Translations under genes and position numbers: made by a program | In this document: positions 35,991 through 48,636 of the stretch, piece after piece | How positions within the stretch are numbered: position 1 is the stretch's first letter | Layout of the letters: each line of letters starts with the position of its first letter | The notes under the pieces: generated by a model | Told to the model about the DNA's origin: nothing | Databases searched by the model: none | The model's input: the letters and a program-made list of their open reading frames with translations, nothing else | Origin: Peptococcaceae bacterium | GTDB lineage: Bacteria; Bacillota; Desulfitobacteriia; Desulfitobacteriales; Syntrophobotulaceae | Assembly (NCBI GenBank): GCA_012517475.1 | Contig: JAAYUV010000003.1 | Coordinates: 62,001-126,000, forward strand | DNA length: 64,000 nt | Direction of reading: 5' to 3'

Positions 35991-36679
35991 TACGATTTCC
36001 CTTTAAAGCGATAGCCAATTCCTCTTACCGTTTCGATGTATTCGGGATTAGCCGGATCCTTTTCAACTTTCTGACGCACATGACGGATATGAACATCTAC
36101 CGTCCTTGTGTCCCCGGGATATTCATAACCCCAGATCTTTTCCAACAGTTCATCCCGGGTATATACTTTTCCCGGATGAGATACCAGTAACCGTAAAAGC
36201 TCAAATTCCTTCGGAGTAAAATCAATGGCCTCACCCCGAATTGTAACGGTAAATGAATTGAGCTCTATTTTGAGATCTCCTCTGGTAATGACTTCTTCAT
36301 CCTTTTCCAGGCTTGTCCTGCGTAATCGAACCTTAATTCTGGCCAAAAGTTCTCTGACTCCAAACGGTTTCGTGATATAATCATCTGCCCCCAATTCCAA
36401 TCCGAGTACCTTGTCAATTTCCTCTCCTTTTGCCGTCAGCATGATCACCGGAATATTGGCCAGCGTACGGTCTGAACGCATTTTTCTGCAAACCTCAAGA
36501 CCATTTACCCCAGGCAGCATCAAGTCCAGCAAAACCAAATCATATTTTGTATTATCCATGAAAGCAAGGGCTTCTTCGCCATCTGCTGCGCAGGTTACCC
36601 GGTATCCTTCTTTCTCCAAATTAAATTTCAACAATTCCCTTATTGTCATTTCATCATCCACGATCAGTATGTGTGCCAT
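35990..36679 (-). CDS. phoB: PhoB/OmpR-type response regulator
   Basis: About 229 residues from the ATG at 36679, which overlaps the pgeF stop (TGATG). Receiver domain (1-120): acidic pocket in ILIVDDEMTIRE, phospho-Asp in DLVLLDLMLPGVNG, MLTAKGEE, and DYITKPF. C-terminal winged helix (about 130-228): DFTPKEFELLRLLVSHPGKV and RTVDVHIRHVRQKVEKDP. It should regulate transcription after phosphorylation by the adjacent kinase. Confidence 0.93.
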   Translation of the reverse strand: MAHILIVDDEMTIRELLKFNLEKEGYRVTCAADGEEALAFMDNTKYDLVLLDLMLPGVNGLEVCRKMRSDRTLANIPVIMLTAKGEEIDKVLGLELGADDYITKPFGVRELLARIKVRLRRTSLEKDEEVITRGDLKIELNSFTVTIRGEAIDFTPKEFELLRLLVSHPGKVYTRDELLEKIWGYEYPGDTRTVDVHIRHVRQKVEKDPANPEYIETVRGIGYRFKGKS

Positions 36680-37485
36680 CAAATAACCCCTTTCCGCATT
36701 GTAATAAAAGCAGCCATCCTTCCGGTAATCCCCTCTCTCCGGTATGAATAAAACAGTTCGCTTTGACAGGATGTACAGAGATTTGCAATAGAAATATTCT
36801 CTGGTAAAATCCCTTCCTTGAGAAATAATTCCAGATTGGCTTTCACCAAATCTAACCTGTATTTACCGGAAGAGGTTTGGAAGATCACATTATGAAATTT
36901 TTCTCGAAAAATTTGAGCGACATCTTCACCAATTTCGTAACAGCAAGAACCAATACAAGGTCCGATTGCGGCAAAACAATCTTTCGCAGATCCGCCGGCA
37001 GCCGTTATCTTTTCCATAATTTTTGTCACAATATTGGAAGCTGTGCCCTTCCAACCGGCATGAGCCAGCCCGACCATATTTATTTGGGGATGATAAAAAT
37101 ATAATGGCACACAATCAGCAAAAAAGCCCATCAGTCCTATGTTATCCTGAGTAACCATTCCATCACATTCCGGTATTGCAGACTCCAGCTCAGACATTCC
37201 CCGTCCGAGATCTCTCTCCGAAACTGAGATCACATTGACCCCATGAACTTGTTGGGCGGCAACACATTTTTCCAATGGCTGCCCTAACCCGGCTAAGAAC
37301 ACCTTTCTGTTTTCCAGAACCTTCACCGGATCATCTGCAACGTGAAAAGCCAAATTCAAAGAGGAATAAGGATCATCACTTATTCCATCGTTCCTTGTCG
37401 AAAAGGCTGTTATAACTCCCATTTGAGACCAACCGGGAATCGTTAAAAACCGAAGATTTTTATCTTCTTTCCATTCCCATCCCAT
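36679..37485 (-). CDS. pgeF: Peptidoglycan editing factor / multicopper-like nucleoside phosphorylase (YfiH/YlmD)
   Basis: A 268-residue protein of the YfiH (formerly polyphenol oxidase) family: AAQQVHGVNVISV, FFADCVPLYFYHP, VGLAHAGWKGTASNIVTKIM, and GPCIGSCCYEIGEDV. The conserved His and Cys bind zinc. Members cleave purine nucleosides, and PgeF also removes incorrect UDP-MurNAc-L-Ser in E. coli. It is the usual ylmD position in the cluster. Start ATG at 37485 after GAGG. Confidence 0.93.
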   Translation of the reverse strand: MGWEWKEDKNLRFLTIPGWSQMGVITAFSTRNDGISDDPYSSLNLAFHVADDPVKVLENRKVFLAGLGQPLEKCVAAQQVHGVNVISVSERDLGRGMSELESAIPECDGMVTQDNIGLMGFFADCVPLYFYHPQINMVGLAHAGWKGTASNIVTKIMEKITAAGGSAKDCFAAIGPCIGSCCYEIGEDVAQIFREKFHNVIFQTSSGKYRLDLVKANLELFLKEGILPENISIANLCTSCQSELFYSYRREGITGRMAAFITMRKGVI

Positions 37486-37596
37486 TACGAATTACCTCAT
37501 ACCCATTTGCAATAGGATTGATCAACTATTTATTTTATCGAAAAATATTAAAAATTTCTTGAGTTTTACATAAAATTAATCATTTCCATTTACAAA

Positions 37597-37851
37597 TTAA
37601 TAATTGTTATTTACTAAATCCCTGCCGTCAACCAGGATGACATCAACACCGACTTTAATCACCTTTTCCCATGGGACAAAAATATCACCGCTGCGATTAC
37701 TGAAGAATCCCTTCCCGCGGGAAGATGTCAAAACAATAATTCCTTTGACAATCCCCTTTTCCAAATCCAAATCCAGATCAATGATAGGCCCCAGGCGACG
37801 TCCATCTTCTATGTTAATTATATCCAACAAGCGCATTTCCGAAACTCTCAA
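37597..37851 (-). CDS. ymxH: PRC-barrel sporulation-associated protein, YlmC/YmxH family
   Basis: About 84 residues from a TTG at 37851, seven bases after GAGGAGGGG; an ATG at 37902 would add a charged extension that family members lack. The PRC barrel is evident: IINIEDGRRLGPIIDLDLDL and GDIFVPWEKVIKVGVDVILV. The family length is about 84 residues, which supports this start. Role unknown, conserved near sigG and the ylm genes in spore formers. Confidence 0.87.
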   Translation of the reverse strand: MRVSEMRLLDIINIEDGRRLGPIIDLDLDLEKGIVKGIIVLTSSRGKGFFSNRSGDIFVPWEKVIKVGVDVILVDGRDLVNNNY

Positions 37852-38009
37852 CTGCAAACCCCTCCTCTCATCCTCGCCGGAATCTTCACGCAAGTCATGC
37901 AAAAGAAAAAATGCGCGAACTGCTCCAGGAAAAGCTAAACATCGTTTTCAAATCAACTTGTTTCACTTTATCATATGAGAAAGAGGTGTAATTGTATCCG
38001 TTCCGGATC

Positions 38010-38035
38010 AAAAATGATCCTCTTTTTTTGAGGAT
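38010..38035 (-). terminator. Terminator after sigG
   Basis: On the minus strand ATCCTC/GAGGAT with an A-rich loop is followed by CATTTTTG, 40 bases after the sigG stop. An overlapping alternative fold (GGATCA/TGATCC) reads on the plus strand. Confidence 0.5.
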
Positions 38036-38074
38036 TGGTATCTTCATTTTTCAAGGATCGGAAAATAGGGATCA

Positions 38075-38848
38075 CTATACATGTTTACGCATATGCTTTA
38101 AAGCAGCTTTTTCCAAACGGGAGACCTGTGCCTGAGAAATTCCGATCTCCTCCGCAACTTCCATTTGTGTTTTACCTTGAAAGAACCGGAGGGAAATAAT
38201 CTTCTTTTCTCTTTCTCCCAGCTTACCCATTCCTTCTTTTATGGCAATCGACTCCAACCATATCCTGTCGGATTGTTTATCATCACCGATTTGATCCATG
38301 ACAAAAATCGGATCACCGCCATCGTGGTAGATGGGTTCAAAAAGAGAGACCGGTTCCTGAATGGCATCTAAAGCAAAAATAACATCTTCCTGAGATATCT
38401 CCAGCTTATTGGCGATTTCGGGAATGGTCGGCTCCCTGGAACATTCCGTTGCCAGTTTGTCCCGGATCTGCAAGGCTTTATAAGCAATATCCCGCAGTGA
38501 CCGGCTTACCCGGATAGGATTATTATCTCTAAGATATCTTCTGATTTCACCGATAATCATCGGGACGGCATAGGTAGAAAACTTAACGTTTTGACTTAGA
38601 TCAAAATTATCAATCGCTTTCATTAATCCGATACATCCAACCTGAAAGAGATCATCCACATGTTCCCCCCGGTTGCTGAAACGCTGGATTACGCTGAGAA
38701 CAAGGCGGAGATTTCCCCGGATAAGCTGTTCACGGGCGGAATGATCTCCTTCCTGATATTTAACAAATAACTCCTTCATCTTGGAACCACTTAAGACGGG
38801 CAGCTTGGAAGTATTTACTCCGCAAATTTCTACTTTGTTCAATACCAT
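38075..38848 (-). CDS. sigG: Forespore sporulation sigma factor SigG
   Basis: A 257-residue sigma-70 factor. It has the SigG-specific N-terminus KVEICGVNTSKLPVLSG, region 2 (DLFQVGCIGLMKAIDNFDLS, VKFSTYAVPMIIGEIRRYLR), region 3 (SREPTIPEIANKLEISQEDV) and region 4 helix-turn-helix (TQMEVAEEIGISQAQVSRLE). It directs late forespore genes. It lies directly after sigE, the conserved order in spore formers. Confidence 0.97.
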   Translation of the reverse strand: MVLNKVEICGVNTSKLPVLSGSKMKELFVKYQEGDHSAREQLIRGNLRLVLSVIQRFSNRGEHVDDLFQVGCIGLMKAIDNFDLSQNVKFSTYAVPMIIGEIRRYLRDNNPIRVSRSLRDIAYKALQIRDKLATECSREPTIPEIANKLEISQEDVIFALDAIQEPVSLFEPIYHDGGDPIFVMDQIGDDKQSDRIWLESIAIKEGMGKLGEREKKIISLRFFQGKTQMEVAEEIGISQAQVSRLEKAALKHMRKHV

Positions 38849-38881
38849 TGACGAATACCCTCCATGTGGACTTCTTTGGAG

Positions 38882-38911
38882 AGTATTCCCTGACTCCGGT
38901 GAAGTTATTCC
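38882..38911 (-). promoter_or_regulatory. SigF/SigG-type promoter before sigG
   Basis: On the minus strand GGAATA and GGGAATACT are separated by about 15 bases in the 69-base gap between sigE and sigG. The -10 fits the forespore consensus GGnnAnAnT; the -35 (GAATA) is close to GywTA. This agrees with sigG being forespore-transcribed separately from sigE. Confidence 0.5.
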
Positions 38912-38917
38912 AAGAAT

Positions 38918-39643
38918 TTATTCCAGGCGAACGAATTCTTTTCTCAAACGCCTTATGATGCGTTTTTCCAGGCGGGAAATGTAAGATTGGGAAATCCCTA
39001 AACGATCTGCAACTTCTTTCTGGGTTTTTTCCTCAATCCCTCCCATTCCAAACCGGAGCTCCATAATCAGTTTTTCCCTTTCGGTTAAGCTGGACATAGC
39101 CTGGAATAATAGATGCCTGTCTACTTCCTCTTCGATCGGTCTGGAAATGATGTCATTATCCGTACCCAAAACATCAGAAAGTAAAAGCTCGTTTCCGTCC
39201 CAGTCGATATTTAAAGGCTCATCAAAAGACACTTCCGAACGAATTTTATTATTTCTTCTTAAGTACATGAGAATTTCATTTTCTATACAGCGGGAAGCAT
39301 ATGTTGCCAGTTTAATCTTTTTAGCAGGGTCAAATGTGTTGACAGCTTTAATCAGCCCTATGGTACCGATCGAGACCAGATCCTCAATTCCGATTCCGGT
39401 GTTTTCGAATTTTCGCGAGATATAAACGACCAGTCTGAGGTTCCGTTCGATTAAGGTATCTTTAACCGAATAATCACCATATTCAAGCCGGCTGATAAGA
39501 TCTTCTTCCTCATCGAGACTTAAGGGAGGAGGCAAAGCTTCACTGCTCCCGACGTAAAAGACTTCCCGGACCCTTTGCAGTTTCTGAATAAAATAGGTCC
39601 ACAACCATTTTATCTGAGAAATAAGTTTACTGATCTGACTCAT
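38918..39643 (-). CDS. sigE: Mother-cell sporulation sigma factor, pro-SigE
   Basis: About 241 residues from the ATG at 39643; its first base overlaps the spoIIGA stop and a TTG one codon upstream is also possible. The N-terminal pro-peptide, with hydrophobic KWLWTYFIQ, precedes the conserved cleavage region [14 protein letters not shown]. Regions 2 and 4 follow ([40 protein letters not shown]). SpoIIGA, encoded just upstream, removes the pro-peptide at the sporulation septum. Confidence 0.98.
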
Positions 39644-40545
39644 CAAGCAATTTCCTCCTTGCTGGCTGGCTTTTGAATATGGTCTGGATGAAGCAGCGCC
39701 TGAAACTTGCCTTCGGAATTAAGGACTTGTTGGACTAATGCAACTGTAACCGGCAGTTCCCATTTCATTTCTCCCTGTATGATCCTGACTTTGCCCAAAC
39801 GGATAGCCGGAAGCCACGTTTGACCGTTTATCCCTTTGGCAGAGATAAAAACCATTCGCTGTAAACCGTATTCGATGTCATTCCAAAGATAGGACCAGGG
39901 GTTCGAGTTTTCCCGCCAAGGGAGCCCGAGAAATTCCTGAATTTTTTCCGGCAATACATGCTGTACTGCTTCTTCCTCGACAATCATAACCGGCGCACCG
40001 GTCAGAGGATCCCTTAATTCATTGCCGGTGTCCAGTAACGCCTTGACCGACAGGCTTTTCCCGTTATCAAAGTTCAATTCCGCTTCATAAAGGATATTAT
40101 CAAGCAGCAGATTGGCTTTTTGCATTTTTTCCCAAACCTGATACCCCCCTCGCAGTATGAGTGCTGTCAAAGGCAGCATCCAGAGTTGTTGAAGGGAGAT
40201 AAACTCGCCATCACCTCCTGTCAGGCCGAACCATCCTGAGAGTGCAAAAAATATTCCCCCGCATACTGCCGAGAGCAGGCTGAAAAAGAGCAGTCCTTTG
40301 GCTAATTCACCAATTCGTTTGATTCTGAGTCCTATCCCGATCATCATGATTGGAACAATGATTCTGGAGATTGCAGTCAGTCCGGAAAACCCGAACAGTA
40401 CAAAGAAAATCGGAAGTTCCCCCAGGATAACCGCAGCCAAAAGGTACAACAAGTGAATTTGTTTCCGGAGCAAATAGGCTGTAAAAGCGATTAAAAAGGC
40501 ATCCATTGCCCCGTTAACCAGGAGTATGACATCCAGGTAAACCAT
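39643..40545 (-). CDS. spoIIGA: Pro-SigE processing protease SpoIIGA
   Basis: About 300 residues from the ATG at 40545 ([19 protein letters not shown]), with AAAGGA eight bases upstream. Five N-terminal membrane segments fill about 1-150. The C-terminal part holds a single aspartyl protease motif, [18 protein letters not shown] (about 175), which works as a dimer. It activates pro-SigE after SpoIIR signalling. Confidence 0.95.
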
Positions 40546-40586
40546 ACCGGAAATCCTTTCAGCGCTTTGCAATTTCTCATTAACAA

Positions 40587-40799: not shown

Positions 40800-41710
40800 T
40801 TATTGTACGAAACGATCGATAATTTGTCCGTTAAGATTATATACAGTAACCAGAATATTGTCGCTATTTAAATCAATGACTGCAAAATGGTACTGCGGAA
40901 TAGGAGGTACGTCAACATTTTTCTTATCTGTATAGCTTAAATAAACGGGGGCTCCAAAAGTACCGATGGTAACCTGGTAAATAGATTGTGAGAATAAAAA
41001 AGTCTGCCCTGCAATTGTTTCATTAAAGTTGTGATCTATATGCCTGCGGCTGTAATTATGTTCATGACCACAAAAAACAATCGGATTTGGCGAACGGTCA
41101 ATAATTCCCCACAGCTTGTCCCGCTGCAATTTATTAACGTCTAAAGAACTGCTCACATGCGCCCCGGTAGGATAGGCAGGCTCATGAAAAAAATAAAAAG
41201 TATATCTCTTCTCCGAATTCATATTGGAATTAATCCAATTAATTTGGGTATCGGAAATTAAGTGCTCCTCGCCAGGGTAATTTGAGTTAAGCATATAGAA
41301 TCTGGTGTTGCCCTTATCAAAATAATAGACTGTCTTCTGGTATCCTTCTAGGAAATTGGCTTGAAATTCCGGAAACACTTCAGCAAAAGCACGTGTACCG
41401 CCTGCCCCTGCTGTGGATTCATGGTTTCCGAAGCCTGGGAAAAAGAAATCAATGGTGTCAATTTCTTAATATTCTCAAACGTTTGGTTTATCGCTTCAAC
41501 GTTAATTCCTCCGTTGGACCCTCGACAGTCAGCCATTACTACAAAACGAATAGAACCCTCTTTTTCCTGGAGATTATCAGATGGGGCTTGTGGAGTTAAA
41601 GGTATAGGAATTGTGTTCTGTTCATTACCCCTCAGGTTTGCGGCATTGCATGAAGTCAATAAAAATATAACAGTTAAAAGCAGGGTAACTTTAAGACTTT
41701 TATTCAGCAT
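40800..41710 (-). pseudogene. Secreted metallophosphoesterase, frameshifted with internal deletion
   Basis: The N-terminal frame starts with a lipoprotein signal (LLLTVIFLLTSCNAA) and the first metal motif in IRFVVMADCRG. After KKLTP the reading slips: the homologous text IDFFFPGFGNHEST continues in another frame and joins the downstream part (FPEFQANFLEGYQKTVYYF, FYFFHEPAYPTG, FCGHEHNYSRR). The GD motif normally found between DxR and GNHE, about 35-40 residues, is missing. The gene therefore has lost a stretch whose length is not a multiple of three. It should be inactive. Confidence 0.82.
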
Positions 41711-41758: not shown

Positions 41759-42541
41759 TTATCGCAGAAAATAAAGGGCTATAACCAAGGCTCCCAGGAT
41801 AAACCTGTAAACGGCAAATAATCCGAAGCCTTTGTTCTTAATATAATTTAAAAGAAATTTTATACTTAAGGCCCCAACAACAGCTGCTGTGATCATAGCC
41901 GTCAGAAAAGGAGCCTTATCAATATGCGTGTGGAGCAATCCTTTGGCATGATAAAGACCATCTCCCAAAATGATAGGAGCCGACAATAAAAACGTAAACT
42001 TAGCTACGCTTTCTCTGGTCATTCCTAATAAACGACCTGCTGTTATTGTTATTCCGGAACGGGACACTCCGGGAATAACTGCAAAAACCTGAGCCAGACC
42101 TATAAGGATGCTCCTTTTGATTCCTGTTTCTCTTAGAACGATTTCTCTGGGACTAAACTTGTCTGCAGCATATAAAATAACCCCCATGATAATTAACATA
42201 ACCCCGATGAGTGCGGCATTCCGAAAATCCTCCATATATTTGTCCAGAAAAACTCCAAATAAAGCCCCAGGGATTGTCGCCAACACCAAAAGCCAAAAAA
42301 GTTGGCCGTCTTGCGTCCCAGGCTTGGTGAAACCTGCCTGGATTAAATTAAGCCAATCTTTCAGGAAAAAGATAATAACGGCTGCGGCCGTACCCAGGTG
42401 TAAGGCTACATCGAAAACAACACCAGGGTCTTCCCATCCAAAAAGCCAGGGTACGAGCACTAAATGTGCTGTACTGGATATAGGCAAGAACTCCGCGATG
42501 CCCTGAACAATTCCGTAAACTATTGCTTGTATGATGCTCAT
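41759..42541 (-). CDS. uppP: Undecaprenyl-diphosphatase UppP/BacA
   Basis: A 260-residue membrane phosphatase with about eight hydrophobic segments and the BacA signatures IAEFLPISSTAHLVLVPWLF (Glu and Ser-rich loop, about 17) and VIPGVSRSGITITAGRLLGM (Arg, about 165). It recycles undecaprenyl pyrophosphate to the monophosphate carrier and gives bacitracin tolerance when abundant. Start ATG at 42541 after GAGG. It lies downstream of the SigY-like operon on the same strand, with a 50-base gap. Confidence 0.96.
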   Translation of the reverse strand: MSIIQAIVYGIVQGIAEFLPISSTAHLVLVPWLFGWEDPGVVFDVALHLGTAAAVIIFFLKDWLNLIQAGFTKPGTQDGQLFWLLVLATIPGALFGVFLDKYMEDFRNAALIGVMLIIMGVILYAADKFSPREIVLRETGIKRSILIGLAQVFAVIPGVSRSGITITAGRLLGMTRESVAKFTFLLSAPIILGDGLYHAKGLLHTHIDKAPFLTAMITAAVVGALSIKFLLNYIKNKGFGLFAVYRFILGALVIALYFLR

Positions 42542-42591
42542 ATCTGCTTCCTCGTTTGTTTAATGTTACAGCTAAAGTTATCTTCTCGTAT

Positions 42592-43524
42592 TTAGTGATC
42601 GAGCTTTGCCCCGCAATGGACACAAAACGTGTCGTTCTTTGTGACAATTGTTCCGCATTTTTCACAGGATTTATTAATTCTGGTTCCGCAATAACTGCAA
42701 AAAGTATTATGCTTGTTTTGCAATGATTCGCATTTGTAACAAGTCTGGTTATTCTGCTTGTAAATAGTGTAAACGATCAGTCCCACGATATTCGTAATTA
42801 GAATAAGCAGCCCCCATAAAGGAGCGTTCAATTTTCTCCTGTTGGCATCTTTATAGACCCATAAGGCAACGAGTATCCAGTAAAGGCCAAATAACAGCAT
42901 GAGTAAAGCAGCCGAAAATCCGATAAAAACTTTTGCATAAGGTATTGGTTTTAAGTCATTGACAATAAATACTTTCATTCCATTTTTTCTGTCAGCAAAA
43001 TAATTCAAAAAATATATTTTTTGCGTGTTGTAGTTGGAATCATAAAAGAAGTCATTATCAAATTCTTTTTTGATATCTTTTGAATCTCTGTAAACATCTT
43101 TCGTTAACAGGACGTTTCTGGGCCCGATTACTTTAAAGTACGTATCGGGGATATTTACATCCTGGAAAAACTGCCTCTTGTCGTTGACTTTGGTCAATAC
43201 AAGCTTGTTATCTTTACCCAAACCTGAATTTTTGGCGCTATAAATAATGTTGTTATCCTTATCCAATAACAGGACATCTTTGATATCCGCAGAAGAATTG
43301 GCAAGATTACCCAGTTGTTCTTGTATGGACTTGTCAATTCCCTGTTTTTCAGCTTGTTCTTCAATGTTATGATAATTCATGGTTAAGGCTATTTTATCTT
43401 TGAAAATATAACCTCCCCAGGCTAAAGTCCCAATGACAAGACAAAGAGAGACAATAATATACCATTTACTTACTTTCCTAAAGTCAGTGGCATTGACAAA
43501 CTTATCCAATCCTTTGAACATCAT
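42592..43524 (-). CDS. Membrane protein with PLDc_N-like segment and C-terminal zinc ribbons
   Basis: About 310 residues from the ATG at 43524 (GGAGG five bases before). It has a membrane helix at about 20-40, an extracytoplasmic region (about 45-195) and two more helices (about 200-255). The stretch LWVYKDANRRKLNAPLWGLL then resembles the PLDc_N/YxlD membrane module. At the end are two C-x2-C...C-x2-C zinc ribbons (CYKCESLQNKHNTFCSYCG, CEKCGTIVTKNDTFCVHCG). Third gene of the sigma operon; probably part of its negative control, by analogy with B. subtilis YxlD. The sensing region has no family I recognise. Confidence 0.72.
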   Translation of the reverse strand: MMFKGLDKFVNATDFRKVSKWYIIVSLCLVIGTLAWGGYIFKDKIALTMNYHNIEEQAEKQGIDKSIQEQLGNLANSSADIKDVLLLDKDNNIIYSAKNSGLGKDNKLVLTKVNDKRQFFQDVNIPDTYFKVIGPRNVLLTKDVYRDSKDIKKEFDNDFFYDSNYNTQKIYFLNYFADRKNGMKVFIVNDLKPIPYAKVFIGFSAALLMLLFGLYWILVALWVYKDANRRKLNAPLWGLLILITNIVGLIVYTIYKQNNQTCYKCESLQNKHNTFCSYCGTRINKSCEKCGTIVTKNDTFCVHCGAKLDH

Positions 43525-43798
43525 TTTGTCCTCCATTCAAATTAATAATTATGGGAATTAAAAATATAAGGGATACACCTTGGAATAAAAAAAGATAAAT
43601 GAAAGTTCTGATATACTGAAACCCTGTAAAGGCATTGAATCCAAATATAACAGCCGCCGCCAGGCAGCCCAGAAAAAAAATACTCTTTAGAATGGTATGT
43701 TTTCTGTTTTCTTTTATTTCCAGACACTTCTGTTCTATTTCATTATCGAGGTTCTTAAGCAATTGATCTGTTTGCTTTATATCAAAATGATCCGTCAT
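43502..43798 (-). CDS. Small membrane protein, YxlC-like anti-sigma candidate
   Basis: About 98 residues from the ATG at 43798 with AAGGGGTG before it. A soluble charged N-terminal half (about 1-40; DQLLKNLDNEIEQKCLEIKE) precedes two membrane helices (SIFFLGCLAAAVIFGFNAF, FIYLFLFQGVSLIFLIPIII). Position, size and topology match YxlC, the SigY antagonist of B. subtilis. It overlaps the sigma gene by 17 bases and the zinc-ribbon gene by 23 bases, so the three are tightly coupled. Sequence similarity to YxlC is weak by eye. Confidence 0.6.
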   Translation of the reverse strand: MTDHFDIKQTDQLLKNLDNEIEQKCLEIKENRKHTILKSIFFLGCLAAAVIFGFNAFTGFQYIRTFIYLFLFQGVSLIFLIPIIINLNGGQNDVQRIG

Positions 43799-44345
43799 CT
43801 TTTTCACCCCTTATCAATATCTTCTTCAATTTGGCTATTCCGTTATGAATTCTACTCTTTACTGTCTTAGGCTCCACTTGGAGCATCTCGCCGATTTCCT
43901 TAAGTGTCAAGCCTTCGACATATTTGAGTTTAATGGCTGTCCGCTGCTCTTCCGTCAAATATTCAAATTGTTCCATAATATTTTGACTGTAAATCCTATC
44001 CACAGCAGAATCCTCAAAGCCGGAAATAATCTCGTCTTTTCTGAAAGCGTGTTCCAGCGGATCGAATACAGCCAACTTCTTTTCCTTCCTCAGATAGTCA
44101 ATATAGGTGTTTTTGGCTATCGTCATCAGATAGGTGGAAAACGTGGCTTTCCCCCCAATGTCAAATTTATCAATATTGCGAATAACCTTCAGGAAAACAT
44201 CCTGGGCAAGATCTTCACTAAGTTGATTACTCTCGGTAAGCTTTACCAAAAATCTGAATACAAAGGGGTGATATAGGCTAATAAGCTCTTGAAAAGCAGC
44301 CTTTTCTCCAAATTGACACCTGCGTATAAGCTCTTTATCCTCCAT
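43782..44345 (-). CDS. ECF-type RNA polymerase sigma factor (SigY-like)
   Basis: A 187-residue ECF sigma: region 2 (FQELISLYHPFVFRFLVKLT, QLSEDLAQDVFLKVIRNIDK, STYLMTIAKNTYIDYLRKEK) and region 4 (YLTEEQRTAIKLKYVEGLTL, PKTVKSRIHNGIAKLKKILI). Start ATG at 44345 after AAAGGTGGG. The operon sigma / small membrane protein / PLDc_N-like protein parallels B. subtilis sigY-yxlC-yxlD, hence SigY-like. It has a candidate self-recognised promoter. Confidence 0.92.
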   Translation of the reverse strand: MEDKELIRRCQFGEKAAFQELISLYHPFVFRFLVKLTESNQLSEDLAQDVFLKVIRNIDKFDIGGKATFSTYLMTIAKNTYIDYLRKEKKLAVFDPLEHAFRKDEIISGFEDSAVDRIYSQNIMEQFEYLTEEQRTAIKLKYVEGLTLKEIGEMLQVEPKTVKSRIHNGIAKLKKILIRGEKDDGSF

Positions 44346-44424
44346 AAGTTCCCACCTTTGATTTGCAATCAGTATAAGATAATGCTTCCTTTAAAAAGCT
44401 ACATTTTTACTGATTCTATTATTA

Positions 44425-44450
44425 CACGCTGAGAAATGAATTAGGTTGCA
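44425..44450 (-). promoter_or_regulatory. Probable ECF promoter of the sigma operon
   Basis: Minus strand: TGCAACCTAA from 44450, 16 bases between TGCAAC and CGTG (44428-44425), reading CGTGTAAT. It matches the divergent site at 44486-44512 and the general ECF layout, and lies about 80 bases before the sigma start. Autoregulation is inferred. Confidence 0.68.
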
Positions 44451-44485
44451 GATTTTTTTCTTTTTTAGAAAAAGCTTTATCAATA

Positions 44486-44512
44486 TGCAACCTAAATAAT
44501 ATATCCATCGTG
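44486..44512 (+). promoter_or_regulatory. Matching ECF promoter before the PAP2 gene
   Basis: Plus strand: TGCAACCTAA from 44486, 17 bases between TGCAAC and CGTG (44509-44512), again CGTGTAAT, about 40 bases before the PAP2 start. The two -35 motifs face away from each other and form an inverted repeat. Confidence 0.68.
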
Positions 44513-44550
44513 TAATTAATAAATGTAGTGGACATGAGGGTTGGTGTCAT

Positions 44551-45165
44551 ATGAAAAATTTAATACATAATAAGTTCCTACAAATTGATAACATTCTTCT
44601 TGATGTATTATCCATAAAAATAAAAAATACCTTCTTTGACAGGCTTATGCCTAAAATTACGCATTGGAACGACTATGGTCAGATTTATATCATCACTTCT
44701 ATTATCCTCTGGAAGGATAATCTTACAAATTTATTGAATATTTTCCTGGCTCTTACTTTAGGACTGCTAAGTGGTGAAGGATTCATAAAGTATTTGTTTA
44801 AGAGAGAAAGGCCGTTAGTAACACCGGATAATTATTGTTTTTTAATTAAATTCCCAAATTCCTCTTCTTTCCCATCAGGACACACAACCTCTTCTTTTGC
44901 CGTATTGGGTGTTACATGGTATATGGATTTACAATATAAATATGTAATATTGGTACTGGCTGTAGTCATTTCTTTTTCCAGAGTTTATCTGCATGTTCAT
45001 TACCCATCGGATATTATCGGGGGGATCCTTCTTGGTTTTATTTGTGCTATGATTACGATCAAAATGCCGGAATGTCTAGGTATGATTCAATCAATATTTT
45101 CGAATATTGCAGCAGTATTAAGTGCTTATGTTGCTAATTATCAATCACTTCAATTGTTTACTTAG
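44551..45165 (+). CDS. PAP2-family membrane phosphatase
   Basis: A 204-residue protein with about five hydrophobic segments and the three phosphatase motifs: KYLFKRERP (K-x6-RP), SFPSGHTTSSF (PSGH), and SRVYLHVHYPSD (SR-x5-H-x3-D). Such enzymes dephosphorylate lipid pyrophosphates; B. subtilis BcrC is a member and recycles undecaprenyl pyrophosphate. Divergent from the sigma operon and under a matching promoter, with uppP downstream of the sigma operon, so a role in envelope stress is plausible. The exact substrate is not shown by sequence. Confidence 0.9.
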   Translation: MKNLIHNKFLQIDNILLDVLSIKIKNTFFDRLMPKITHWNDYGQIYIITSIILWKDNLTNLLNIFLALTLGLLSGEGFIKYLFKRERPLVTPDNYCFLIKFPNSSSFPSGHTTSSFAVLGVTWYMDLQYKYVILVLAVVISFSRVYLHVHYPSDIIGGILLGFICAMITIKMPECLGMIQSIFSNIAAVLSAYVANYQSLQLFT

Positions 45166-47489: not shown

Positions 47490-48269
47490 TTAAGCAGCTT
47501 TATCCGCTGCAGTGCCTTTATAGAAATTCATGGGGACATCGCCATTAAGTGAATCATGAGGCCGATAGGTATTGTACTTGATCATGTAGGCATTGATGCC
47601 GGTTCGAAGCTCTCGAGGCGAATTGTACTCGTTGATATAGATGTCATCATATTTAATGGTCCTGAAGAATCGTTCGGTTCTGACGTTATCCAATGCTTGT
47701 CCTTTGCCGTCCATTGAAATCCGGATGTTGTTGCTTTCAAGCAGTTCAATGTAAGTTGGGTTGGTAAAGTGACTCCCTTGATCGCTGTTCATGATCTCCG
47801 GTTTGCAGCGGCCAAATGCTCGCTTCAGGCAGGTCATGACAAATCCTTTTTCCAGTGTGCTGGACAGCTCATAATCGACGATGCATCGGCTATACCAGTC
47901 GATGATGACAAACAGATACATGAAGCCTTTTTGCATCTTTATATAGGTGATATCTACTCCCCAAACTTGATTTGGTCGAACGATATTCAAATTTCTTAAC
48001 AGGTACGGTTTGACGTATTGAGCATGATATCTTCTGCTGAGATTCGGTTTAGGATAAATGGCAATTATTCCCATTTCACGCATTAAACGCTGCACGCGTT
48101 TGCGGTTGATGACATATTTCTCTCTTAATTTATCAGTAATCTTCCGGTATCCGAAAGTCGGATTATCTGTATGAATTCTATCGATCTGATTCATGATTTC
48201 CAGGGTTTCCTCATCCACGGATTTTTCCGCAGGCTGATAATAGGCACTGCTGCGATTGATGTTTAACAA
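47490..48269 (-). CDS. IS3-family transposase, orfB (integrase catalytic domain)
   Basis: The open frame gives 259 residues from 48269; the frame continues upstream of this ATG (NCLTAKDRQEIIEHHHPKIT), so the real protein is probably made by frameshifting from orfA. The HTH_21 region is VDEETLEIMNQIDRIHTDNP. The rve domain follows with the DDE triad: WGVDITYIK, MNSDQGSHFTN, and NVRTERFFRTIKYDD. The end is YRPHDSLNGDVPMNFY, normal for the family. Confidence 0.93.
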   Translation of the reverse strand: MLNINRSSAYYQPAEKSVDEETLEIMNQIDRIHTDNPTFGYRKITDKLREKYVINRKRVQRLMREMGIIAIYPKPNLSRRYHAQYVKPYLLRNLNIVRPNQVWGVDITYIKMQKGFMYLFVIIDWYSRCIVDYELSSTLEKGFVMTCLKRAFGRCKPEIMNSDQGSHFTNPTYIELLESNNIRISMDGKGQALDNVRTERFFRTIKYDDIYINEYNSPRELRTGINAYMIKYNTYRPHDSLNGDVPMNFYKGTAADKAA

Positions 48270-48309
48270 CTCGCATTGCCGTTTAACTGTGATTTTGGGG
48301 TGATGATGT

Positions 48310-48636
48310 TCAATGATTTCCTGGCGGTCTTTTGCGGTTAAGCAGTTCGGAAGATTTTTTTTTCATCCAATCAACCTCAATGGTCAATTGGCCGACTTTC
48401 CGCTCTAAGTCTGCGATATGCTCATTTTTTTCTGCCAGCTCTTTTTCCGCCTCAGACGGCCCTTTCTTAAATACTTCGGCAGCGCGCTCCATGAACTCAG
48501 CTTTCCATCGACTGATCAGTACCGGACTGATTTGATGCTCGGCCGCAAGCTCATTCAAAGTCTTTTCTTCCCGCAGCAGTTCCATTACTACCTGGGCTTT
48601 GAATTCTGGTTGGTGATTTCTTCTTTTCTTACTCAT
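48310..48636 (-). CDS. IS3-family transposase, orfA (helix-turn-helix)
   Basis: 108 residues: an HTH_Tnp_1 domain (FKAQVVMELLREEKTLNELA, QISPVLISRWKAEFMERAAE) then a leucine-zipper-like coil (HIADLERKVGQLTIEVDWMK). Near the end is a run of nine A (MKKK), the likely slippage site. By my reading orfB lies in the +1 frame there (or -2), not the usual -1, so either slippage is unusual or the A-run has gained or lost a base. Confidence 0.88.
   Translation of the reverse strand: MSKKRRNHQPEFKAQVVMELLREEKTLNELAAEHQISPVLISRWKAEFMERAAEVFKKGPSEAEKELAEKNEHIADLERKVGQLTIEVDWMKKKSSELLNRKRPPGNH

Follow-up and report, generated by a model that had tools for sequence, protein, structure and literature searches.

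A conserved ECF sigma factor unit that probably controls carrier-lipid recycling and its own expression

Introduction

In Bacillus subtilis, the gene for the extracytoplasmic function (ECF) sigma factor SigY is followed by a small membrane-protein gene, and the sigY operon also holds the ABC transporter genes yxlFG. SigM of B. subtilis responds to a shortage of undecaprenyl phosphate (UndP) and controls bcrC, which encodes a PAP2 enzyme, and uptA, which encodes a DedA-family UndP flippase (PMC11081497). On the outer leaflet, undecaprenyl pyrophosphate (UndPP) is dephosphorylated by BacA and PAP2 enzymes, and the resulting UndP is returned by DedA proteins acting as flippases (PMC12826051). Roney and Rudner described the SigM pathway as confined to B. 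subtilis and its close relatives, with analogous pathways elsewhere that "await discovery" (PMC11081497). Here we describe a locus in a Peptococcaceae bacterium of the class Desulfitobacteriia, within a 64,000-nucleotide stretch of contig JAAYUV010000003.1 (the window), where genes for an ECF sigma factor, a small membrane protein (gene 2) and a zinc-ribbon membrane protein are followed by uppP, and face a divergent PAP2 phosphatase gene across two copies of a single promoter motif. We argue that this is probably a conserved, autoregulated ECF unit for carrier-lipid recycling.

The locus resembles the SigM-YhdLK system (PMC11081497) in combining an ECF sigma factor with what we infer to be membrane-bound regulators, and the SigM regulon (bcrC, uptA) in that PAP2 and DedA enzyme types lie under the motif in relatives, whilst the window unit itself has PAP2 and UppP and no DedA. 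Unlike SigM, its exact-motif regulon in its own genome consists of two transcripts and includes uppP, and unlike SigM-YhdLK, the putative regulators are a small transmembrane (TM) protein and a zinc-ribbon protein with a likely Cache-like domain. It is like SigY-YxlC in that SigY is the best NCBIfam match of the sigma factor and the gene after sigma encodes a small membrane protein, but the ABC transporter genes are absent from the window unit and the sigma factor reaches 140.6 bits against the SigY cut-off of 194 (NF007216). As in the BcrC/UppP pair of B. subtilis (PMC5723303), two non-homologous phosphatases of the PAP2 and BacA types, here presumed to act on UndPP and to be tied to envelope stress, occur together, but in the window both types share one locus with twin divergent promoters and a presumably dedicated sigma factor alongside. 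The unit appears to be functionally like SigM, and neither a member of that family nor an orthologue. Our search of the open-access literature on SigY/YxlC, on ECF factors with UndPP phosphatases in clostridia and on ECF factors with DedA and BcrC found no account of such a system.

Results

Twin divergent promoters between the sigma and PAP2 genes

Two divergent copies of TGCAACCTAA...CGTGTAAT lie between the sigma and PAP2 genes, reading TGCAACCTAATTCATTTCTCAGCGTGTAAT on the minus strand and TGCAACCTAAATAATATATCCATCGTGTAAT on the plus strand, with 35 bp separating their TGCAAC boxes. The -10 element of the sigma promoter ends 75 nt 5' of the sigma ATG, and that of the PAP2 promoter 34 nt 5' of the PAP2 ATG. 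An earlier interpretation made from the letters of the window alone (the sequence-only reading) had placed the same bipartite motifs before both genes, 16 (sigma) and 17 (PAP2) bases apart; both copies were located, on opposite strands, and the spacings are correct when counted from TGCAAC to CGTGTAAT, the full TGCAACCTAA to CGTGTAAT spacing being 12 and 13, respectively. It had also proposed a genome-wide motif search, in which GCAACCTN14-15CGTGT was found at exactly two sites in the 3.68 Mb genome, both at this locus, and its reversed pattern at none; the motif is not frequent elsewhere. As 100 dinucleotide shuffles of the window also gave no match, a chance motif was ruled out. An ordinary sigma-70 promoter was rejected because a sigma-70 scan scored barely above its shuffles, and a simple palindromic operator because relatives carry single sites, the inverted arrangement of the two sites following from the divergence of the promoters.

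In many sites of the motif the spacer that follows the -35 element is rich in T, and work cited in PMC6056542 reports that a T-tract in this position helps activation by several B. subtilis ECF sigma factors. In several relatives the -35 element together with this spacer makes up the 3' arm of an inverted repeat of 12-19 bp, flanked by A and T runs (L039:6631 and 8555 (-), L041:6023 and 8080 (+), L040:4830 (+), L029:7001 (-), L079:1501 (+), L081:1501 (+) and L089:1528 (-)). The arms vary by site but remain complementary, for example AATAATCAGG/CCTGATTATT and AAGTTAGGTT/AACCTAACTT, and shuffled-upstream controls seldom gave a matching repeat. Such a repeat resembles an intrinsic terminator that would serve the preceding gene and overlap the ECF promoter; it is absent from the window promoter copies.

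The promoter motif tracks the sigma triad across genomes

We defined a triad as sigma, gene 2 and zinc-ribbon protein, and searched 83 genomes of the class Desulfitobacteriia and 227 of the order Clostridiales (that of Fonticella tunisiensis), 310 together. The triad is rare and patchy, being intact in 3 of the class genomes (G000, G031 and G046) and 8 of the order genomes, and phylum samples of 399 genomes, centred on G000 and on Fonticella, yielded nothing beyond distant relatives. Whole-genome scans with TGCAACCTN14-15CGTGTA, using the reversed pattern as control, recovered the exact motif in 10 of 11 triad genomes as against 6 of 299 others (24 sites vs. 2 for the reversed pattern). The class genomes held six sites, in five genomes (reversed control: two sites), and the motif was present in all three triad genomes and 2 of 80 others; in the order set there were 18 sites in 11 genomes (reversed control: none), with the motif in 7/8 triad genomes and 4/219 others (Fisher p 1.1e-4 and 4.6e-10, respectively, both to be taken as a guide since the genomes are related). 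Across genomes, the promoter type and the module of three genes go together.

The two motif-bearing class genomes outside the triad group are G056, which retains a remnant of the module (a zinc-ribbon fragment and PAP2), and G029, where the site lies inside an open-reading frame (ORF). We aligned 23 sites that had been chosen for TGCAAC and CGTG[TC]A; the bases following CGTGTA, which played no part in the choice, were A in 23/23 and T in 21/23, whilst the two intragenic chance matches did not have these bases. The remnants in G056 (L030:5247-5554 (+)) and in G008, which shares the genus of the window (L007:1501-1728 (-)), consist by tblastn of the C-terminal zinc-ribbon fragment only, with neither sigma nor gene 2 beside them, and the unit is therefore undergoing loss in some lineages. 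Distant ECF/gene 2/zinc-ribbon triads at L026:4840-6646 and L027:4939-6823 have neither the motif nor, within the stretch read, an adjoining PAP2, UppP or DedA gene, so the presumed sensor module appears broader than this regulon.

Genes preceded by the motif in relatives

PAP2, UppP and DedA recur as neighbours of the triad. At triad loci, exact sites stand before the sigma operon or before a PAP2 gene that follows the triad (G031, G046, G532, G579), and in G610 a one-mismatch site precedes PAP2, uppP and sigma arranged as one operon. Distal sites precede PAP2 in G515, G579, G688 and G668, a further distal site in G668 precedes DedA-uppP, and in G579 a site ~6 kb from the triad precedes deacetylase-DedA-PAP2; G590 has one intragenic site. 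Loci without an exact site upstream of sigma were rescanned allowing one to three mismatches, three-mismatch matches being weaker than exact ones. Near-variant CGTGTAAT promoters were recovered in this way: in G475 directly before sigma, in G046 before the DedA-PAP2 gene lying 5' of sigma, and in G031 ~260 bp 5' of sigma. G502, the order triad genome without an exact motif, has a divergent DedA/sigma pair with CGTGTAAT promoters, their -35 elements altered, on either side; this is the divergent layout of the window with DedA replacing PAP2.

Only two sites occur in the Fonticella genome; one is the promoter of sigma and the other stands ahead of a decayed triad. The decayed copy (L045:4638-5311) is a sigma N-terminus joined to a fragment of the zinc-ribbon protein, then a broken uppP, and we take it for a relic duplicate of the operon; its sigma-uppP order is that of the window. 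DedA (VTT)-PAP2 fusion proteins are encoded at L039:3858-5150 (-) and L078:178-1470 (+), beside the sigma unit or its promoter, and would unite UndP flippase and phosphatase in a single chain.

The phosphatases

The catalytic motifs of UppP are intact (QGIAE for (E/Q)xxxE and PGVSRSGIT for PGxSRSxxT), with a score of 214.9 bits against TIGR00753, slightly below the cut-off of 217.5. Because another uppP lies on a different contig of the same genome, the copy in the operon appears to be an inducible addition. The PAP2 protein likewise has intact motifs (KxxxxxxRP, PSGH and SRxxxxxHxxxD), which place it in the PAP2 superfamily. Against the SepP/YbjG-type UndPP phosphatase equivalogs it reached 67.3 bits (NF047884, cut-off 250) and 63.9 bits (NF008813, cut-off 229). 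The proposal that both phosphatases act on UndPP is supported for UppP by its BacA domain and motifs; the PAP2 protein, which lies under the cut-offs of named UndPP phosphatases, may do so.

The sigma factor and its putative regulators

With sigma regions 2 and 4 only, and with matches over cut-off to PF04542 and PF08281 and to TIGR02937 (107.8 vs. 42.9 bits), the sigma factor belongs among ECF (sigma-70 group IV) factors. It is neither SigM nor SigY by curated cut-offs, with 102.9 bits against the SigM profile TIGR02950 (cut-off 147.95), and shares 49-58% identity with the close orthologues that were found.

Gene 2 matched no Pfam or NCBIfam family above cut-off, and the label "YxlC-like" given to it in the sequence-only reading holds for position and size alone. 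By hydrophobicity it consists of a short cytoplasmic N-terminal segment (~38 residues before the first TM) and a TM hairpin; it is kept in triads, at 29-37% identity among close members. In class I anti-sigma factors (ASDI) such as RsiW (PMC7406223) the zinc motif is Hx3Cx2C, and gene 2 of the distant relative G229 (L027) is like these in bearing it before the TM region, with a sub-threshold zf-HC2 match. Window gene 2 differs from them in its short pre-TM segment and in the absence of Hx3Cx2C, although zinc-free ASDIs exist and it may still belong to class I. We favour gene 2 as the anti-sigma factor with reasonable confidence, because of the motif in L027.

The zinc-ribbon protein runs from a TM through ~160 further residues to a TM pair and a double zinc ribbon; its eight zinc-ribbon cysteines are invariant across 13 homologues, and it is 37-44% identical among close members. 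An AlphaFold2 model of the middle part shows helices followed by a beta sheet (mean pLDDT, the predicted local distance difference test, of 67), for which the best Foldseek match was the WalK extracytoplasmic sensor domain (7dud_A, probability 0.99, E 4e-3, TM-score 0.41 by target). As the high match probability comes with this E-value, a Cache-like fold is likely but unproven. A sequence search of the PDB gave weak zinc-ribbon matches only. A role as sensor or co-regulator seems somewhat more probable than otherwise.

Locus layout

The gene content given by the sequence-only reading was borne out by Pfam, which assigns Sigma70_r2/r4, BacA, PAP2 and double zinc-ribbon domains (Table 1). Gene 2 overlaps the sigma gene, and uppP lies 50 bp 3' of the zinc-ribbon gene, in the same direction and with its own ribosome-binding site. 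Since ribosome-binding sites are present at the genes of the unit and the 50-bp gap shows no terminator-like site on the minus strand, uppP probably closes the sigma operon.

Table 1 Genes and predicted promoters of the sigma unit, in window coordinates
Feature	Coordinates	Strand	Basis
ECF sigma factor, 187 amino acids	43782..44345	-	Pfam Sigma70_r2/r4_2 and TIGR02937 over cut-off
Small two-TM membrane protein (gene 2), 101 amino acids, start codon uncertain	43502..43807	-	Hydrophobic segments
Membrane protein: TM, Cache-like (likely) extracytoplasmic domain, two TMs, double zinc ribbon	42592..43536	-	Pfam DZR
uppP (BacA), undecaprenyl-diphosphate phosphatase	41759..42541	-	PF02673, 256.6 bits
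PAP2-superfamily phosphatase, divergent gene	44551..45165	+	PF01569, 79.4 bits
ECF-type promoter of sigma operon (predicted)	44421..44450	-	-35 TGCAAC, N16, -10 CGTGTAAT
ECF-type promoter of PAP2 gene (predicted)	44486..44516	+	-35 TGCAAC, N17, -10 CGTGTAAT

Downstream of uppP lies a metallophosphoesterase-like gene (40800-41710 (-), recognised by eye, with no Pfam match) in two overlapping frames, 41348-41710 and 40800-41378, a split which suggests a frameshift or sequencing error. Judged from their ORFs, a sporulation cluster (YlmD-like, YlmC-like, SigG, SigE and SpoIIGA; 36679-40572 (-)) adjoins the unit, and an IS3-type transposase pair of two ORFs (47490-48636 (-)) lies near the locus.

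Discussion

The sequence-only reading saw here a compact, self-regulated envelope unit joining an ECF sigma factor to two non-homologous carrier phosphatases, and the comparative evidence strongly supports it: the motif co-occurs with the triad in two lineages and marks PAP2, UppP and DedA genes even where the sigma locus is distant. The same comparisons give strong support to the regulatory link, and we think it likely that the unit is a dedicated, autoregulated ECF regulon for UndP recycling. Other genes found under this promoter type are mostly those of UndPP phosphatase types (PAP2, UppP) and of DedA-type UndP flippases. The encoded sigma factor would read the TGCAACCTAA / AT/T-rich spacer / CGTGTAAT promoter. 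When there is no stress it would be held by the membrane proteins, with gene 2 acting as anti-sigma factor and the zinc-ribbon protein as sensor or co-regulator, until stalled carrier recycling, signalled at the outer face of the membrane, freed it. The freed sigma factor would then amplify its own operon and raise UppP and PAP2, and these would dephosphorylate UndPP and return UndP to peptidoglycan synthesis.

Several observations weigh against this. G515, G534 and G668 have genuine-looking sites but no detected triad; their triads may have been missed or lost, or another sigma factor may read their sites. A few sites precede genes not obviously involved in UndP recycling, namely an MFS gene (a distal site in G610), UbiA beside a DedA-PAP2 fusion (a distal site in G534) and a Wzx-like flippase (G475), and the triad of G688 has no adjoining PAP2, UppP or DedA gene, its PAP2 site being distal. 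The scores of the PAP2 protein make other lipid phosphates possible substrates. The assignment of gene 2 as anti-sigma factor is without profile support, and hydropathy, charge and TM count would place the zinc ribbons outside unless TM3 is re-entrant, which is unusual for a sigma-binding part.

Three other explanations were weighed. The promoters might be read by another ECF sigma factor of the cell, the local one having a different target, as the three motif-bearing genomes without a detected triad and the overlap of ECF promoters in Bacillus would allow; we consider this very improbable, since the presence of the motif follows the triad over 310 genomes (although triad-less genomes also hold sigma-like genes, as first-look candidates) and the motif or a near variant lies upstream of the sigma operon in almost all lineages. 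If PAP2 instead acted on phosphatidic acid or phosphatidylglycerol phosphate (PGP), and the diacylglycerol formed supplied a neighbouring MGDG/UgtP-type glycosyltransferase, with UppP a bystander, the unit would be a membrane-lipid regulon. PAP2 enzymes are often promiscuous, and in G031 and G579 an MGDG_synth-like glycosyltransferase gene comes after a PAP2 gene that lies under the promoter. That glycosyltransferase was seen in two genomes, however, whereas at least six lineages have DedA or DedA-PAP2, and UppP recurs with the unit (the window, G579, G610 and the Fonticella relic) and lies under a distal site in G668, which makes a membrane-lipid regulon improbable.

A module for resistance to bacitracin or other cell-wall antibiotics, whose sigma factor would answer UndPP-binding antibiotics and raise the phosphatases mainly for resistance over homeostasis, would suit the patchy, accessory distribution and the second uppP elsewhere in the genome, and UppP/BacA and BcrC-type PAP2 phosphatases are established determinants of bacitracin resistance. 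The sequence-only reading had suggested a bacitracin-type role, but among the ORFs read around the unit there was no BceAB-type transporter or two-component system, and the DedA flippases, DedA-PAP2 fusions and glycolipid-type glycosyltransferases found at the promoter or locus in relatives fit carrier or lipid homeostasis better; we regard a resistance module as possible but doubtful.

UndP recycling under a dedicated sigma factor is thus the reading we retain. A wider proposal, to which we would give close to an even chance, is that the unit belongs to an undescribed pathway of UndP/UndPP homeostasis in anaerobic Bacillota with regulators unrelated to SigM-YhdLK, in which a zinc-ribbon sensor with a WalK-like domain at the outer face and a minimal TM anti-sigma factor would govern a promoter-defined regulon able to recruit all steps of carrier return, from PAP2/UppP dephosphorylation to DedA flipping. 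The locus and its relatives represent a concrete, testable candidate for a pathway of the kind anticipated by Roney and Rudner, in genomes of the order Clostridiales and the class Desulfitobacteriia. The promoter motif is specific enough for a direct read-out of the regulon, in which UndPP phosphatases would be linked with DedA flippases and perhaps with enzymes for glycolipids or prenyl compounds. The unit may hold a new type of carrier-lipid sensor.

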